From: Deltaproteobacteria bacterium
GTDB taxonomy: Bacteria; Desulfobacterota; Syntrophia; Syntrophales; UBA8958
Length of the DNA: 41,349 bases
Direction of reading: 5' to 3'
NCBI GenBank assembly: GCA_026388335.1
Contig: JAPLJZ010000077.1
Coordinates: 1-41,349 of the forward strand
Translations under genes and position numbers: made by a program
Shown here: piece by piece, positions 21,536-27,460 of the stretch
Numbering within the stretch: the first letter of the stretch is position 1
How the letters are laid out: every line of letters begins with the position of its first letter
The notes under the pieces: model-generated
Seen by the model: the letters and a program-made list of their open reading frames with translations, nothing else
The model's database searches: none
Told to the model about the DNA's origin: nothing

Positions 21536-22693
21536 TTACAAAACGAATACAGAAATAACGGCCCCAATTGGCACTATATATAGGATATCTACTTTGCGAA
21601 GCAAAGCGATTAATGCTACAAATCCCATAAGAATCCTTACAATGTCCCATGGAATGACCATCGTGAATTTGATGCAGACATATAAGAGTAGTCCTACGAA
21701 GGAGGCGAAGATCCCATCTATAGCTTTCATAGAATATATCGAATTTTTCAGCCGATCAAAAAACGGCGCGACGGTGATCACCATAAAGAATGAAGGCGTA
21801 AATATAGCGATTGTTGCCACAAGCGCACCGGTGATCCCATAAACCAGATAGCCCACAAAGGTTGCCGTAATAACAATGGGGCCGGGTGTTATCTGACCGA
21901 GGGCTATCCCGTCCATAAAGGTCTTACTATTCAGCCAGCCACTGTTAATAACAATTTCGTGAAGCATGAGCGGAAGAGATGCAAACCCTCCTCCGAAGGC
22001 GAAGAGGTCTATTTTGAGCATAACAGCCGCCAGATTAAAGAGGATAGCGCTTAGGAAATAGAGCCCGGTAAAGCAGACAAGAAAAGTGACCAAGAGACCA
22101 ATGATTTGCTTGGCATTCCACCGTATTTCTTCTTTATCGTAATAGACGGAGGTACTTGAGGTGGATACCCTATGAATGGCCGCACCAAGACCGCCGGCTA
22201 CAATAATAACCATAAAAGGGCTTATACCCAACCACAACAACATGGCGGACATAAGAGCAATCATCACGCTCCTGCAATTATTTGCGACGTTTCTGCCAAA
22301 GGAGTATGCTGCATTAATAATGATTGCAACCACGATCACCTGAAGGCCGTTGAAAAGGGAGATAAACTTTGGGAGGCCGTTGAATCTGGTATATAAGACC
22401 GCGAGAATCAACATCAAAATAAAGGCCGGTAATCCGAAACCTAAATAGGCAGCCAATGCTCCGGATATTCCTCGAACCCTGAATCCTACATAAGCTGCTG
22501 CCTGCATGGCTGTGGCTCCTGGTATGGACTGGCAAAGGGCAACACCGTTTTTAAAATCATTTTCATCAAGCCATTGATTCCTGCGGGTGGCAAGTTCTCT
22601 GATATGCGCCACCATTGCGGGACCGCCGAAGGCCGTCAATCCAAGCCTGAAGAAAGCAATGAAAAGATATTTGATTGTCGGTGTCATGTTCAT
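21536..22693 (-). CDS. chrA: Chromate transporter family protein (CHR, two-domain)
   Basis: A 385-residue inner-membrane protein of the CHR family with two homologous halves, each with the family motif: AFGGPAMVAHIRE (about 19-31) and FAFGGGFASLPLMLHE (second half), plus QSIPGATAMQAAAYVG and GQITPGPIVITATFVGY, which are also duplicated. About ten membrane segments. ChrA exports chromate in resistance systems, but many homologues in anaerobes have unknown anion substrates, so the chromate role is uncertain here. It follows the selenoprotein gene by 72 bases on the same strand and could be co-transcribed. Confidence 0.87.
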   Translation of the reverse strand: MNMTPTIKYLFIAFFRLGLTAFGGPAMVAHIRELATRRNQWLDENDFKNGVALCQSIPGATAMQAAAYVGFRVRGISGALAAYLGFGLPAFILMLILAVLYTRFNGLPKFISLFNGLQVIVVAIIINAAYSFGRNVANNCRSVMIALMSAMLLWLGISPFMVIIVAGGLGAAIHRVSTSSTSVYYDKEEIRWNAKQIIGLLVTFLVCFTGLYFLSAILFNLAAVMLKIDLFAFGGGFASLPLMLHEIVINSGWLNSKTFMDGIALGQITPGPIVITATFVGYLVYGITGALVATIAIFTPSFFMVITVAPFFDRLKNSIYSMKAIDGIFASFVGLLLYVCIKFTMVIPWDIVRILMGFVALIALLRKVDILYIVPIGAVISVFVL

Positions 22694-22765: not shown

Positions 22766-23158
22766 TCATTCCTCTTTTTGGAAAGGAGAAACCGGGGTAT
22801 TTTCAGGCATGGGGTGTTCGGCGGGAGCCGAAACGATAGCGCGGGCTCCCGCAAGCTCGAGCCATTTCATAAACAGGAAACTTCTCAACCGGATACGGAT
22901 GCGGTCCGCATCGGGCTTCGGACGAAGCTTTGCTGGATAGAACAGCTTTATATCTCCGGCGTGCGACAAGAGGTAATGATCGGAGTCGTCCAACGGTGCG
23001 CCGGTGAGCAACCGGGGCACATAACTTCCCGCCACGTCCCGCGCGGCTGGACATTTTCACCCGCCGCCCATCATAGGCTGGAAGTCCAGGACGATCGTCA
23101 CGGCACCCTGGCAGCGATCCCTGATGAACGCCGCAGCTTCGGAATCTATTTCGAACAT
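22766..23158 (-). CDS. Probable selenoprotein (CC/Se-motif type) with in-frame TGA
   Basis: Starting at ATG 23158 the frame reads MFEIDSEAAAFIRDRCQGAV, then VTIVLDFQPMMGGG (20-33), then TGA (23059-23057), then continues without stop for 96 residues: KCPAARDVAGSYVPRLLTG, DHYLLSHAGDIKLFYPAKLR, DADRIRIRLRSFLFMKWLEL. The part before the TGA is a plausible domain start, and the part after is a well-formed domain with no start of its own other than an internal GTG. The layout (acidic N-terminus, a glycine-rich motif with Sec/Cys, a strand ending LFYP, a strand RIRIRL and a helix SFLFMKWL) matches the small HesB-like CC/Se-motif (seleno)proteins of deltaproteobacteria, as I recall them. Length 130 residues including Sec34. 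The gene begins seven bases after the upstream gene. Gene callers would give only an 89-residue fragment. Confidence 0.72.
23036..23052 (-). promoter_or_regulatory. Candidate bacterial SECIS hairpin
   Basis: Starting four bases after the in-frame TGA, GTCC (23052-23049) can pair with GGAC (23039-23036), with an inner GC/GC pair and a small loop. A short stem-loop just 3' of UGA is where SelB binds in bacteria. The stem is short and I could not fold it computationally. Confidence 0.35.
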
Positions 23159-23165
23159 GGTTTAA

Positions 23166-23792
23166 CTATTTGCGGTTCCCTTCAGCAGGATTTTCTTTTC
23201 GCTTTTCAAGATGTCGCTTGAGGGCCGCCAGATCGCTGATCATGAGATCCTGCAGAGAGGTGCACGCCTCCTTTCCGAAGGGGGTTTCCGGCAGGAAGAG
23301 TGCATCCCTGATCAACTCGCCCACGGCGCTTACAAGTCCGTCAATGCCCCTGTCACGGAAAGCCGGCACGAGGTCATTATCAAAAACCGCCTTATCTTCC
23401 TCATCATATTCGAACACCGACTGCCAGGCCTGCAAGAATTCAAGCTCTGTCATCCCGAATCTTGCGAGGAGTTCCTCTTTGCAGGTCCCGTAGAGAAGAA
23501 GCAGGCCCGAGAGATATGTCCGCAATGCCTTCAGGTAACTCTTACTGTCCACCCCGGGACGGAGCTGCCAGTCTGCAAGGGCTCCCAGCGATCGCCTCTT
23601 TTCCAGACCGGCCAGTGTGGCGATGACCTCGTCTGCCGATATGGCCGAGGAAAACCATATTCGCTTCTGCTCCTTGGTCTTTGCACGACGGGCCGCGTTC
23701 GCGCAGAATCTCTGGGTGTGACGTCCCACGTAGCGGTCGTACGGTTCCTTGGTGGAAGCAAAGGCATCGTGCAGGAATTTCAGTATGGACAT
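23166..23792 (-). CDS. Unrecognised helical protein (208 aa) upstream of the selenoprotein
   Basis: I do not recognise this 208-residue protein. It is predicted almost all helical, soluble and charged, with no signal peptide or membrane span. Notable pieces: ILKFLHDAFASTKEPYDRYV, KEELLARFGMTELEFLQAW and a basic C-terminus KRHLEKRKENPAEGNRK. A general resemblance to TorD-like redox-enzyme chaperones was considered, but no signature was found. ATG at 23792 has AGGAGG eight bases upstream, better than the TTG at 23798. It is followed seven bases later by the probable selenoprotein, so the two are coupled. Confidence 0.65.
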   Translation of the reverse strand: MSILKFLHDAFASTKEPYDRYVGRHTQRFCANAARRAKTKEQKRIWFSSAISADEVIATLAGLEKRRSLGALADWQLRPGVDSKSYLKALRTYLSGLLLLYGTCKEELLARFGMTELEFLQAWQSVFEYDEEDKAVFDNDLVPAFRDRGIDGLVSAVGELIRDALFLPETPFGKEACTSLQDLMISDLAALKRHLEKRKENPAEGNRK

Positions 23793-23892
23793 GCTCAACT
23801 CCTCCTTGCCAGGTTCGGGGATCCGGTTTCAAGGATCGCAGAGAGTATGGAATAGTTTAATATTTTTTAACACATCCTTAAAGAAACAGCAA

Positions 23893-23974: not shown

Positions 23975-25270
23975 TTACAGCATTCCCTGCTCTTTGGCCT
24001 GGGCCGTGAGCGACTCCCGGAAGTTGGGATGGGCGATGGCGATGAGAGCCTTGGCACGCTCGCGAATACTTTTGCCCCGCAGATCTGCCGCCCCGTATTC
24101 GGTGACGATGAAGTGGACGTCGTTTCGCGAGGTGGTCACAGCGGCACCCGGGTCAAGTGCACCGGCAATGCGTGAAACCTTCCCGCCGGCTGCTGTGGAA
24201 GGCAGTGCGATGATGGATTTCCCGCCGACGGAGCGGCTTGCCCCGCGGACAAAATCGACCTGCCCGCCGACGCCGCTAAACTGGTTGCGGCCGATCATCT
24301 CGGCGTTGACCTGCCCCATCATATCGACCTGCAGGGCGGAGTTGATGGAAATCATCTTCTCGTGCTGACCGATGATGAAGGGATCATTTGTATAGTCGAC
24401 AGGCCGCATCATGACATCGGGGTTGTTGTCGACAAAATCGTAGAGCTTGCGTGTGCCCATGAGAAAGGTCACAACATATTTTCCGGTGTTGATCGTTTTC
24501 TTCCGGTTTGTGACGACACCCGCCTCCGCCAATGCCACAATACCGTCGGAGAACATCTCGCTGTGAATACCCAGGTCCTTCTTATCTTTCAGGAACAGGA
24601 GCACGGCATCGGGAATGGCGCCGATGCCCAGTTGGAGCGTTGAACCATCTTCAATAAGTTTCGCCACGTTCTCGCCGATGGCTCTCTCAAGATCGCCGAT
24701 GACGGGCGGCTTGAGCTCGATGAGGGGCTCGTCCTTCTCAACGATGCAATCGATTTCGTCGAGGTGGATTTTCGCACCCAGGGTGCGGGGCATGAATTTG
24801 TTCATCTGGGCGATGGTTACCCGGTCGGCGCCGGACGCTGCGAGCGTATAATCCACGGAGACCCCGAGGCTGCAATAGCCCTCGGCATCGGGCGGCGTGA
24901 CCTGCATCAGGGTCACGTCAACGGGCAGGATTCGCCAGCTGAAGAGACGGGGAATCTCGGAGAAAAAACAGGGTGTATGAAGGGCGCGCCCCTCGGAGAC
25001 GGCCTTGCGGGTCGCGGCCCCGACGAAGAGTGAATTGTGCCGGAAACTCCCCTCCATGCCGGGCTGGGCGTACTTGGCGGGTCCCATGGCCACCATATGT
25101 ACGATCTCAACGTTTTTGAGTTCCGGGGCTCTTGCCACCAGGGCATCCACCAGCGTGGGCGGTTCGCCGCAGGCATGGCCTACGACGATACGGTCGCCAT
25201 CCTTAACCTGTTTCAGCGCCGTCTCGGCGCTCATGATCTTCTTTGCGTATTTCTGTTTCCAGTCGTTCAT
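23975..25270 (-). CDS. abfT: 4-hydroxybutyrate CoA-transferase
   Basis: A class I-like CoA-transferase of the acetyl-CoA hydrolase/transferase family, 431 residues. It would move CoA from acetyl-CoA to 4-hydroxybutyrate, giving 4-hydroxybutyryl-CoA for the dehydratase in the same operon. Seen: the active-site region LGIHSEMFSDG with Glu238, the position and context of the catalytic Glu of the Clostridium aminobutyricum enzyme; oxyanion/CoA loop QLGIGAIPDAV; FSGVGGQVDFVRGASRS; VTEYGAADLRGKS near the C-terminus. ATG at 25270 has GAGG seven bases upstream and overlaps the end of the four-cysteine gene by 68 bases. It is the last gene of the island. Confidence 0.92.
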   Translation of the reverse strand: MNDWKQKYAKKIMSAETALKQVKDGDRIVVGHACGEPPTLVDALVARAPELKNVEIVHMVAMGPAKYAQPGMEGSFRHNSLFVGAATRKAVSEGRALHTPCFFSEIPRLFSWRILPVDVTLMQVTPPDAEGYCSLGVSVDYTLAASGADRVTIAQMNKFMPRTLGAKIHLDEIDCIVEKDEPLIELKPPVIGDLERAIGENVAKLIEDGSTLQLGIGAIPDAVLLFLKDKKDLGIHSEMFSDGIVALAEAGVVTNRKKTINTGKYVVTFLMGTRKLYDFVDNNPDVMMRPVDYTNDPFIIGQHEKMISINSALQVDMMGQVNAEMIGRNQFSGVGGQVDFVRGASRSVGGKSIIALPSTAAGGKVSRIAGALDPGAAVTTSRNDVHFIVTEYGAADLRGKSIRERAKALIAIAHPNFRESLTAQAKEQGML

Positions 25271-25556
25271 AGTATTTCCTCACTTTCATCAACACTTCCG
25301 GGACGATCCTCTTCGCGGGCACTTCCGCGCCATCAACAGTGGCCGCCGCCACCGTAACATAAGGCGGGTCCTTGGGATTGTACTTGAAGGCACAGCCCGA
25401 CAGGCATCCGCTCAGAAAAACCATGAAATCGGCATCGGGACTGTTGAAGACAACGTCAAAGCCCATGTCGACGAGCGCTTTCTGTAGTTCAAGGGCAATC
25501 TGCCCCCGGTCGATCCGGGGATTGCAGCCCCCGCAGAACTGGATGCCCACCGTCAT
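25203..25556 (-). CDS. Small four-cysteine protein of unknown function
   Basis: A 117-residue soluble protein starting MTVGIQFCGGCNPRIDR. It has CGGC (Cys8, Cys11) and CLSGC (Cys51, Cys55), enough to hold a metal or a [4Fe-4S] cluster. An alternating strand-helix pattern (RGQIALELQKALVDMGFDVVF, DFMVFLSGC, PYVTVAAATVDG) suggests a small Rossmann-like or flavodoxin-like core. I do not recognise the family with confidence. It overlaps the CoA-transferase start by 68 bases and lies five bases after the NifU-like gene, so it is locked into the 4-hydroxybutyrate operon. A role in Fe-S supply or redox for the dehydratase is an inference. Confidence 0.7.
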   Translation of the reverse strand: MTVGIQFCGGCNPRIDRGQIALELQKALVDMGFDVVFNSPDADFMVFLSGCLSGCAFKYNPKDPPYVTVAAATVDGAEVPAKRIVPEVLMKVRKYYERLETEIRKEDHERRDGAETG

Positions 25557-26008: not shown

Positions 26009-27460
26009 TTATGCGGGGATACCGGCGATCTTCTTTGCGAGTGCTTTCTTCTGTTCGAGGTTGCCCTGGCGCGAGATCATGATCCGCTGCGCCTGGGGAG
26101 AGCCGGCGCCGTGCATCGACTCGGTACGATAGCCCACGGCCGCCGTTCCTAGCGTGATGTTCTCGATAAGGCGTAAAATCCGCATGCGGTGTTCCGTGGG
26201 AACTGATGGAATGCCTTGCAGATACTTTTCGATGTATTTGCCTGTAACCGGGTTCCTCAGATCCTTCTCGGAGGGCATGGTGACCATGAGTCCACCGGCA
26301 ATGTCCTCGGCAAGCCGGGCGATTTCATAGGGGAACCGGGTGACATTCTGCTTGCAGACGTTGGCCAGCAGCAGGTCAATGAGGTAGTTCCCGGAGGCCG
26401 TCTTGTGTCCCTCGGCCGAACAGGCAATCCCGCATGCGTAAAGGGTCTCGTTTAAGTGCATCATCTCGATGAGCTTGTCCTTCACATGGGAGGCCTTGTT
26501 CGCGCCGTTGTAGTCGGCGGCCAATGCCGCCGCGCCGATCAGCACGTCGCCCACGCCCACCTTGCAGCCGCCGTAGCTCTGACGATGATACCCGGCGAAA
26601 CGCTCCACCAAGGCGCCGCTGAACTCGTACTCGCCGCACATGAAGACGTTTTCCCAGGGCACGAAGAGATTATCGAAAATCATCATGGCCTCGTGCCCGC
26701 CGAACTCCTTGTTACCCATGTCGAACTGGCCACCCTCGAGTTTGCGGGTGTCACAGGACTGGCGGCCTAAGATATAGAAGATGCCCTCGGCGTCGGCCGG
26801 CGCCACGAAGGACAGGGCGAAGTCGGCATCTTCTTTTGACATCGTGAGGGTGGGCATGACGAGGACCCAGTGGGAGTTGACGGCGCCCGTCTGGTGGGCC
26901 TTGCAGCCCCGCACGACGATGCCGTCCTCGCGCCTTTCCACGATGCGGCAGAACAGATCCGGATCGGCCTGCTTGCCGGGGGTGAGCCCGCGGTCGCCTT
27001 TGACGTCCGTCATGGCGCCGTCGACCGTCCAGTCCTCCTCCTGCATCTTCAGCAGAAAGCTCCGGAAGCGCTTATGGTACTCGGTGCCGAGCTTCTTGTC
27101 CATCTCGAAGGTCGTGCTGTCCATGGCGTTGATGGCGTCCATGCCCACACAGCGCTGGAAGCAGGCCGCCGTCTTCTGGCCCATCAAACGCTGCATCTTC
27201 ACCTTTTTCACCAGGTCCTCGGGGCTCTGGTGCAGGTGGCAGAAACGGTTGATCTTCTTGCCCGTCAGGGAGGAAGTGGCCGTCATCAGCTCCGCATGCT
27301 GCGGATCCTGCGCGAGCGTGTAGGTCATCTTGACAGAGTTCATCGAGGGACGGATGATGGGGTGGTCGACGACATTCTTCACCTCTTCGCCCATCAGGTA
27401 GACCTTGAAGTTCATCTTACGTAAACTCTCTTCGTACTGTTCTGGTGTTTTCAATGGCAT
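26009..27460 (-). CDS. abfD: 4-hydroxybutyryl-CoA dehydratase / vinylacetyl-CoA isomerase
   Basis: A 483-residue [4Fe-4S]- and FAD-containing dehydratase that converts 4-hydroxybutyryl-CoA to crotonyl-CoA by a radical mechanism, and isomerises vinylacetyl-CoA. It belongs to the HpaB/acyl-CoA dehydrogenase fold. Seen: cluster ligands in ACFQRCVG (Cys100, Cys104) and HRQSYGGC (His292, Cys299), equal to the Cys-Cys-His-Cys set known in the Clostridium aminobutyricum enzyme; N-terminal EQYEESLRKMNFKVYLMGE; GQFDMGNKEFGGHEAMM. All ligands are intact, so it should be active. The 105 bases upstream (27461-27565) show nothing specific. It follows the permease and precedes the NifU-like gene. Confidence 0.95.
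   Translation of the reverse strand: MPLKTPEQYEESLRKMNFKVYLMGEEVKNVVDHPIIRPSMNSVKMTYTLAQDPQHAELMTATSSLTGKKINRFCHLHQSPEDLVKKVKMQRLMGQKTAACFQRCVGMDAINAMDSTTFEMDKKLGTEYHKRFRSFLLKMQEEDWTVDGAMTDVKGDRGLTPGKQADPDLFCRIVERREDGIVVRGCKAHQTGAVNSHWVLVMPTLTMSKEDADFALSFVAPADAEGIFYILGRQSCDTRKLEGGQFDMGNKEFGGHEAMMIFDNLFVPWENVFMCGEYEFSGALVERFAGYHRQSYGGCKVGVGDVLIGAAALAADYNGANKASHVKDKLIEMMHLNETLYACGIACSAEGHKTASGNYLIDLLLANVCKQNVTRFPYEIARLAEDIAGGLMVTMPSEKDLRNPVTGKYIEKYLQGIPSVPTEHRMRILRLIENITLGTAAVGYRTESMHGAGSPQAQRIMISRQGNLEQKKALAKKIAGIPA

Follow-up and report, generated by a model that had tools for sequence, protein, structure and literature searches.

A probable selenoprotein gene with an in-frame TGA at the end of a 4-hydroxybutyryl-CoA gene cluster in a Syntrophales bacterium, and its putative relationship to CC/Se motif and HesB-like proteins

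The locus and its gene neighbourhood

The window, i.e., the whole stretch of 41,349 nucleotides that was analysed, is contig JAPLJZ010000077.1 of a Syntrophales draft genome (GCA_026388335.1; 4.06 Mb, 268 contigs). On its minus strand, a reading frame runs from an ATG at position 23158 through 32 further codons into a TGA (codon 34), and continues for another 96 codons up to a TGA at 22768-22766 (Table 1). The residues GGG precede the internal TGA and KC follows it. A mechanical list of open reading frames contained solely an 89-residue piece of this gene (22766-23035), starting at an internal GTG (codon 42). The first-pass annotation had proposed that the frame continues through the TGA from a start seven bases downstream of the preceding gene; the length of the continuation, the flanking residues, and the 7-base gap between the stop of that gene and the ATG were all confirmed by reading the sequence. 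Automatic annotation probably splits or shortens this gene, and the curated model of its family scores it under the cut-off.

Table 1. Coordinates of the genes and predicted features at the locus
Feature	Position	Strand	Remarks
Chromate-transporter family protein (ChrA, PF02417)	21536..22693	minus	72 nt downstream of the predicted selenoprotein gene, same strand
Predicted selenoprotein gene	22766..23158	minus	130 residues, Sec at position 34, terminal stop TGA
In-frame TGA, predicted to be read as Sec34	23057..23059	minus	motif GGGUKC
More stable stem-loop	23027..23051	minus	UCC/GGA and GCCGCG/CGUGGC, loop CGGGA, -13.3 kcal/mol
Alternative stem-loop	23019..23037	minus	7 bp, loop GGGAA, 26 nt past the TGA, -5.1 kcal/mol alone (weak)
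orf210	23166..23798	minus	directly upstream, 7 nt gap
CoA-transferase	23975..25270	minus	best PDB matches are 4-hydroxybutyrate CoA-transferase (3eh7, 3gk7)
orf117	25203..25556	minus	small; lies between the genes for the dehydratase and the CoA-transferase; motifs FCGGC and GCLSGC
4-hydroxybutyryl-CoA dehydratase homologue	26009..27460	minus	PDB 1u8v, E 1.5e-232

The genes upstream include a homologue of 4-hydroxybutyryl-CoA dehydratase, an iron-sulphur flavoenzyme, and the CFQRC and HRQSYGGC stretches of the encoded protein, which we take to hold the iron-sulphur ligands of this enzyme, are identical to those of 1u8v. The product of orf117 is 91% and 77% identical to its counterparts at two closely related loci (designated L002 and L003, respectively), and had no Pfam match at an E-value of 0.01. 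For the product of orf210, neither NCBIfam nor Pfam gave a match at an E-value of 0.1, and matches in the PDB were at chance level only (E 0.64 and 0.94). This gene precedes the predicted selenoprotein gene at all three close loci, and it was found in 3 of 155 genomes of the same class, two of which also carry the selenoprotein gene. At L003, the dehydratase, orf117, CoA-transferase, orf210, and selenoprotein genes follow in the same order as in the window, and L002, which lies on a short contig, displays this order from orf117 onward. The selenoprotein gene is thus the last gene of a 4-hydroxybutyryl-CoA cluster that one other genome shares and of which a short contig carries a part. The third of the class genomes with orf210 (G430) encodes a dehydratase, a transferase, and an orf210 homologue that are 80%, 85%, and 40% identical to those of the window, respectively, and no CC/Se gene was detected there, either on the stretch that was read or by a search of the genome. 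Since G430 has the dehydratase and the transferase and no CC/Se gene was found in it, the dehydratase does not need the selenoprotein everywhere.

Homologues of the predicted protein

A scan of a collection of genome contigs, which detects near relatives only, yielded L002 and L003 (the latter from Syntrophaceae UBA2192), with protein identities to the window of 84% and 74%, respectively. Both have the same 130-codon frame, in which the TGA at codon 34 is the sole internal stop, so that the alternative outcome considered in the first-pass annotation, i.e., homologues that all end before the TGA or start after it, was not encountered. The motif is GGGUKC in L003 and GGGUQC in L002, and Cys16 and Cys36 are invariant across the three sequences. 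A further locus (L056, genome G482) has the same sequence as L003 throughout the gene (390 bases) and in 400 bases of flanking DNA, and the two were counted once. Between the window and L003, third codon positions hold 43 of the 76 differences after the TGA (binomial p 2.7e-5) and 11 of the 19 differences before it (p 0.024). In the three pairwise comparisons of the window, L002, and L003, dN amounted to 0.04-0.12 upstream of the TGA and 0.11-0.21 downstream of it, against dS values of 0.42-1.72 and 0.36-0.83, respectively. The earlier claim that both halves are coding is borne out by this lower dN than dS and by the excess of third-position differences on either side of the TGA.

The distribution of the gene is sparse. 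Of 11 genomes searched in the taxonomic family, it was found solely in that of the window. A profile built from the three close sequences matched solely the window gene and a locus in G308 (L036, see below) among 395 genomes of the phylum, while among 155 genomes of the class it matched the window gene, G482 (the genome of L003), and two weak candidates, both of which were treated as chance matches; one of these (L057) lacks the motif and has stops nearby, the other is L058. No match was obtained in viral contigs, plasmids, or phages. The 3.2 kb contig with L002 is binned in a Spirochaetaceae metagenome-assembled genome that gave no match to selA, and on account of this result and of its closeness to the window sequence we suspect that this contig was misbinned. 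Contamination was considered for the window contig as well and was rejected: its GMP synthase shares 94-96% identity with that of three genomes of the same genus and 84% with that of a fourth, values by which the contig appears to fit the genus of its assembly. This GMP synthase gene is present as a single full copy in the window's genome (G000), and full matches were absent from G004, G005, and G009.

Among the NCBIfam models, the window protein matched one family at an E-value of 0.1, namely NF041239 ("CC/Se motif family (seleno)protein"; 24.5 bits, E 2.1e-5), with an alignment that spans the TGA and pairs residues 2-104 with positions 3-90 of the 91-position profile. When the halves were scanned separately, the 33-residue part gave no match and the 96-residue part scored 14 bits. 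Passages of PMC13188914 describe this family as a known selenoprotein family with a CxxU motif, and PMC9312934 lists it as 'Hypothetical protein predicted in Moorella thermoacetica'. Neither the window protein nor L003 (27.5 bits) nor L002 (23.4 bits) reached the 40 bits set as the curated cut-off. The window protein is therefore treated here as a divergent relative of NF041239 with the motif GGGUxC and not as a strict member. The suggestion in the first-pass annotation that the full read-through belongs with CC/Se families thus held as far as a match spanning the TGA is concerned, but not at the curated threshold. No Pfam family matched the window protein, and a single match, in one of the 19 sequences aligned below, was at chance level. 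When the 19-row profile was searched against PDB sequences, no match turned up at E-values up to 10.

A search with NF041239 of 395 genomes sampled from the phylum gave 16 matches in 13 genomes; nine genomes have a match above the cut-off, and the 16 do not include the window gene. An in-frame TGA was present in 13 of the matches (one of which has two), two have Cys-Cys, and one has neither. The window's own genome encodes two further members, L024 (contig C212) with Cys-Cys and L037 (C74) with Cys-Sec; L034 is another Cys-Cys member, and L035 has neither Sec nor Cys (GSI). The commonest motif in the family is GU, and GU followed by C, CU, CC, and UU (L036) also occur, with no such motif in L035. 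In the member with UU (G308:C44:19336-19623), two consecutive TGA codons lie in frame (TGUUVKV) and apparently stand for Sec-Sec where some other members have Cys-Cys. In an alignment of these 16 sequences with the three close ones, at least 90% of the rows have Sec or Cys in the column of Sec34; L037 was aligned with its Cys in this column and its Sec in the next. All 19 rows match NF041239 at an E-value of 1 or better, although 16 of them were chosen by that match. Cys homologues at position 34, which had been put forward as a check, were thus found among the distant members (L024 and L034), but not among the close homologues, both of which have TGA.

Selenocysteine insertion at codon 34

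The genome of the window encodes the complete machinery for selenocysteine insertion. The selA, selB, and selD genes were detected with scores of 601.8, 392, and 393 bits, respectively, all above the curated cut-offs, and a tRNA-Sec match of 75.6 bits was identified by ARAGORN as tRNA-SeC with anticodon tca. A second tRNA-Sec match (47.4 bits, barely above the gathering score) was rejected as tRNA-Ser. The first-pass annotation had named selA, selB, selC, and selD as genes to look for, and all four are present. The selD gene itself appears to use Sec, as it contains an in-frame TGA within VHGSGUACK. The same genome also has two HesB-like matches (on C144 and C59) with one TGA each.

Downstream of the TGA, the mRNA can form two mutually exclusive, overlapping stem-loops (Table 1). 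According to a passage of PMC13188914, the bSECIS model requires a stem of 4-16 bp capped by a 3-9 nt loop that has a G early on, at a spacing of 16-37 nt and with an energy of at most -7.5, and a subset of putative bSECIS elements departs from this model. The loop of the more stable, bulged structure starts 15 nt past the TGA, one short of the spacing of the model. L002 and L003 can also form the pairing of the alternative structure. In the window, the 40 nt that start at the TGA fold with -14.5 kcal/mol (z -2.1; matched or bettered by 4 of 200 shuffles), and a 51-nt stretch gave a z-score of -1.24 (matched or bettered by 22 of 200). The corresponding folds of L002 and L003 were indistinct from shuffles (z -0.78 and -0.88 for 40 nt, 0.15 and -0.61 for 51 nt). 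A simplified bSECIS search, which considers unbulged stems and the energy of the stem-loop alone, was passed at 13 of 18 TGA sites (17 in the family and one in selD) compared with 233 of 1648 codons elsewhere in these genes, with relatedness left uncorrected in this codon control. L002 and L003 pass this search; the window (-5.1 kcal/mol, spacing 26), L029, both TGA codons of L036, and selD fail. An Rfam scan of the window at gathering thresholds gave no match. The short hairpin mentioned in the first-pass annotation exists but is modest, and its fit to the bSECIS model is imperfect. It is compatible with Sec insertion and does not constitute proof.

These data bear on two alternative readings of the TGA. 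The first is that it is an ordinary stop, which ends a 33-residue peptide, and that a separate protein is translated from the internal GTG at codon 42. Codons 42 and 47 are GTG in all three close sequences, the mechanically listed frame begins at codon 42, and TGA is a normal stop in this window, where it ends 10 of the 23 picked open reading frames. Nevertheless, the upstream half is under in-frame coding constraint, the stop at codon 34 is TGA in all three sequences, the family profile spans it, the frame of Cys-Cys members is uninterrupted at this site, and the Sec machinery is complete, which renders this reading very improbable. The second alternative, a pseudogene or a sequencing error in which a Cys codon was misread, draws on the draft state of the assembly with its 268 contigs and on the single base that separates TGA from TGT or TGC. 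An error of this kind had been named in the first-pass annotation as a result that would count against its proposal, and it is contradicted by the occurrence of the same TGA in three distinct assemblies with 74-84% protein identity, as well as by purifying selection and by the in-frame TGA codons in 13 of the 16 family matches; we regard it as scarcely credible. The stretch from 22766 to 23158 is, with high confidence, a genuine selenoprotein gene in which the TGA at codon 34 is read as Sec. The original proposal of a missed selenoprotein is upheld by TGA34 in three assemblies, the sel genes, and the family match across the TGA. With the machinery present in the genome, SelB loaded with Sec-tRNA would decode UGA34 on this mRNA, presumably aided by the stem-loop that directly follows.

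Relationship to HesB-like selenoproteins and possible function

The first-pass annotation had also likened the protein to HesB-like (seleno)proteins. At the level of direct matches this was not reproduced, since the HesB-like model TIGR01911 matched neither the window protein at an E-value of 0.1 nor any of the 19 family sequences at an E-value of 1, but profile-profile comparison lends it support. A HesB-like alignment (A6) was prepared from 20 of the 25 loci of a TIGR01911 search, with the partial matches L069, L074, L075, L079, and L083 excluded, and comparison of the 19-row family profile with this alignment by hhalign gave a probability of 85.7% (E 5.4e-6, score 35.7) over 72 columns with 14% identity, in which the Sec/Cys columns are aligned with each other. 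Omission of the three window-type rows gave 90.3% (score 37.6), masking of all Cys residues 58.1% (score 29.2), and the three window-type rows alone 17.4%. As controls, 100 column shuffles reached a maximum score of 16.9, the reversed profile 10.6, and an unrelated alignment of orf210 15.7. The HesB-like set matches IscA, SufA, and their relatives in the PDB. Genome G181 has a CC/Se selenoprotein gene and, immediately after it, a HesB-like selenoprotein gene (L048, G181:C1:1308219-1308761); both encode GGGU, and each contains a TGA of its own. An AlphaFold model of the three close sequences had a mean pLDDT of 42.3, too poor for judging a HesB/IscA fold. Of 247 genomes sampled from the phylum, 125 gave TIGR01911-like matches, two of these genomes above the cut-off, and most of the matches listed have one in-frame TGA.

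On the basis of these profiles, the CC/Se family is in all likelihood distantly related to HesB-like selenoproteins and, via these, probably to IscA/SufA-type proteins. A statement of the CC/Se-HesB relationship was not found in the titles and abstract openings that were searched, and it may already be in print. What is new here is the putative link between CC/Se and HesB/IscA proteins at the profile level, with the Sec column aligned, together with the tandem gene pair in one genome. HesB/IscA is thereby offered as a likely fold for the CC/Se family, and a divergent GGGUxC branch is added to a selenoprotein family of obscure function.

Sec34 would occupy the place of the conserved Sec/Cys of HesB-like proteins and would most likely provide a HesB-like scaffold with a reactive selenolate. 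It could form a selenenyl sulphide with Cys36 or Cys16 as the resolving residue, both cysteines being found in the three close sequences; alternatively, Sec34 could be a ligand of a metal or cluster, with Cys16 and Cys36 as co-ligands. In the weakest step of the proposal, the selenoprotein would protect, reduce, or mature the neighbouring dehydratase. The position of the gene at the end of the dehydratase/CoA-transferase cluster suggests such a dehydratase-linked role. Given that G430 has the dehydratase and transferase genes without the selenoprotein gene, a role in the operon with the 4-hydroxybutyryl-CoA enzymes is a tentative, rather doubtful proposition. A literature search for 4-hydroxybutyryl-CoA dehydratase together with selenoprotein returned one paper, on oral microbes, with a single mention of each.

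A ChrA-family gene follows the selenoprotein gene in the window. Among the gene types of the window cluster, ChrA is the sole one that was also seen next to another of the family members (one of 16), namely at L043 (G099:C95:1252-2793), where the ChrA-family gene lies directly beside the CC/Se selenoprotein gene and upstream of it. The selenoprotein might accordingly serve a ChrA-type transporter or the handling of oxyanions and not the 4-hydroxybutyryl-CoA enzymes, which would be compatible with its reading as a selenoprotein. With ChrA neighbours at only 2 of 19 loci, some of which are cut by contig ends, and with MoaE-type and BrkB-type genes instead at L002 and L003, respectively, we consider this role improbable. 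A broader proposal, to which we likewise attach little probability, is that CC/Se proteins, the GGGUxC branch among them, are a Sec arm of the HesB/IscA fold, with a selenolate in place of a thiolate ligand, and that in this case they would be devoted to keeping 4-hydroxybutyryl-CoA dehydratase active in syntrophic anaerobes. The 4-hydroxybutyryl-CoA neighbourhood provides a concrete setting for probing CC/Se function, and if the link to these enzymes were true, it would offer a handle on the reason for Sec in HesB-like proteins.

Among known systems, redox selenoproteins with UxC or UxxC resemble the window protein in that its GGGUKC also has a Cys two residues past the Sec, a likeness of motif only. 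NF041239 shares with it a profile aligned across the TGA and Sec/Cys in the same column; in contrast, the window protein has GGGUxC, Cys16 and Cys36, extra residues past the Sec, and a longer C-terminus, its identity to the other 16 aligned sequences is 20-30%, and its score stays under the curated cut-off. The window protein also lacks UxGP, the motif given for HesB-like proteins in a passage of PMC13188914, whereas the CC/Se family and the HesB-like selenoproteins of TIGR01911 are alike in the placement of Sec on the Sec/Cys column and in the tandem arrangement of their genes in G181.
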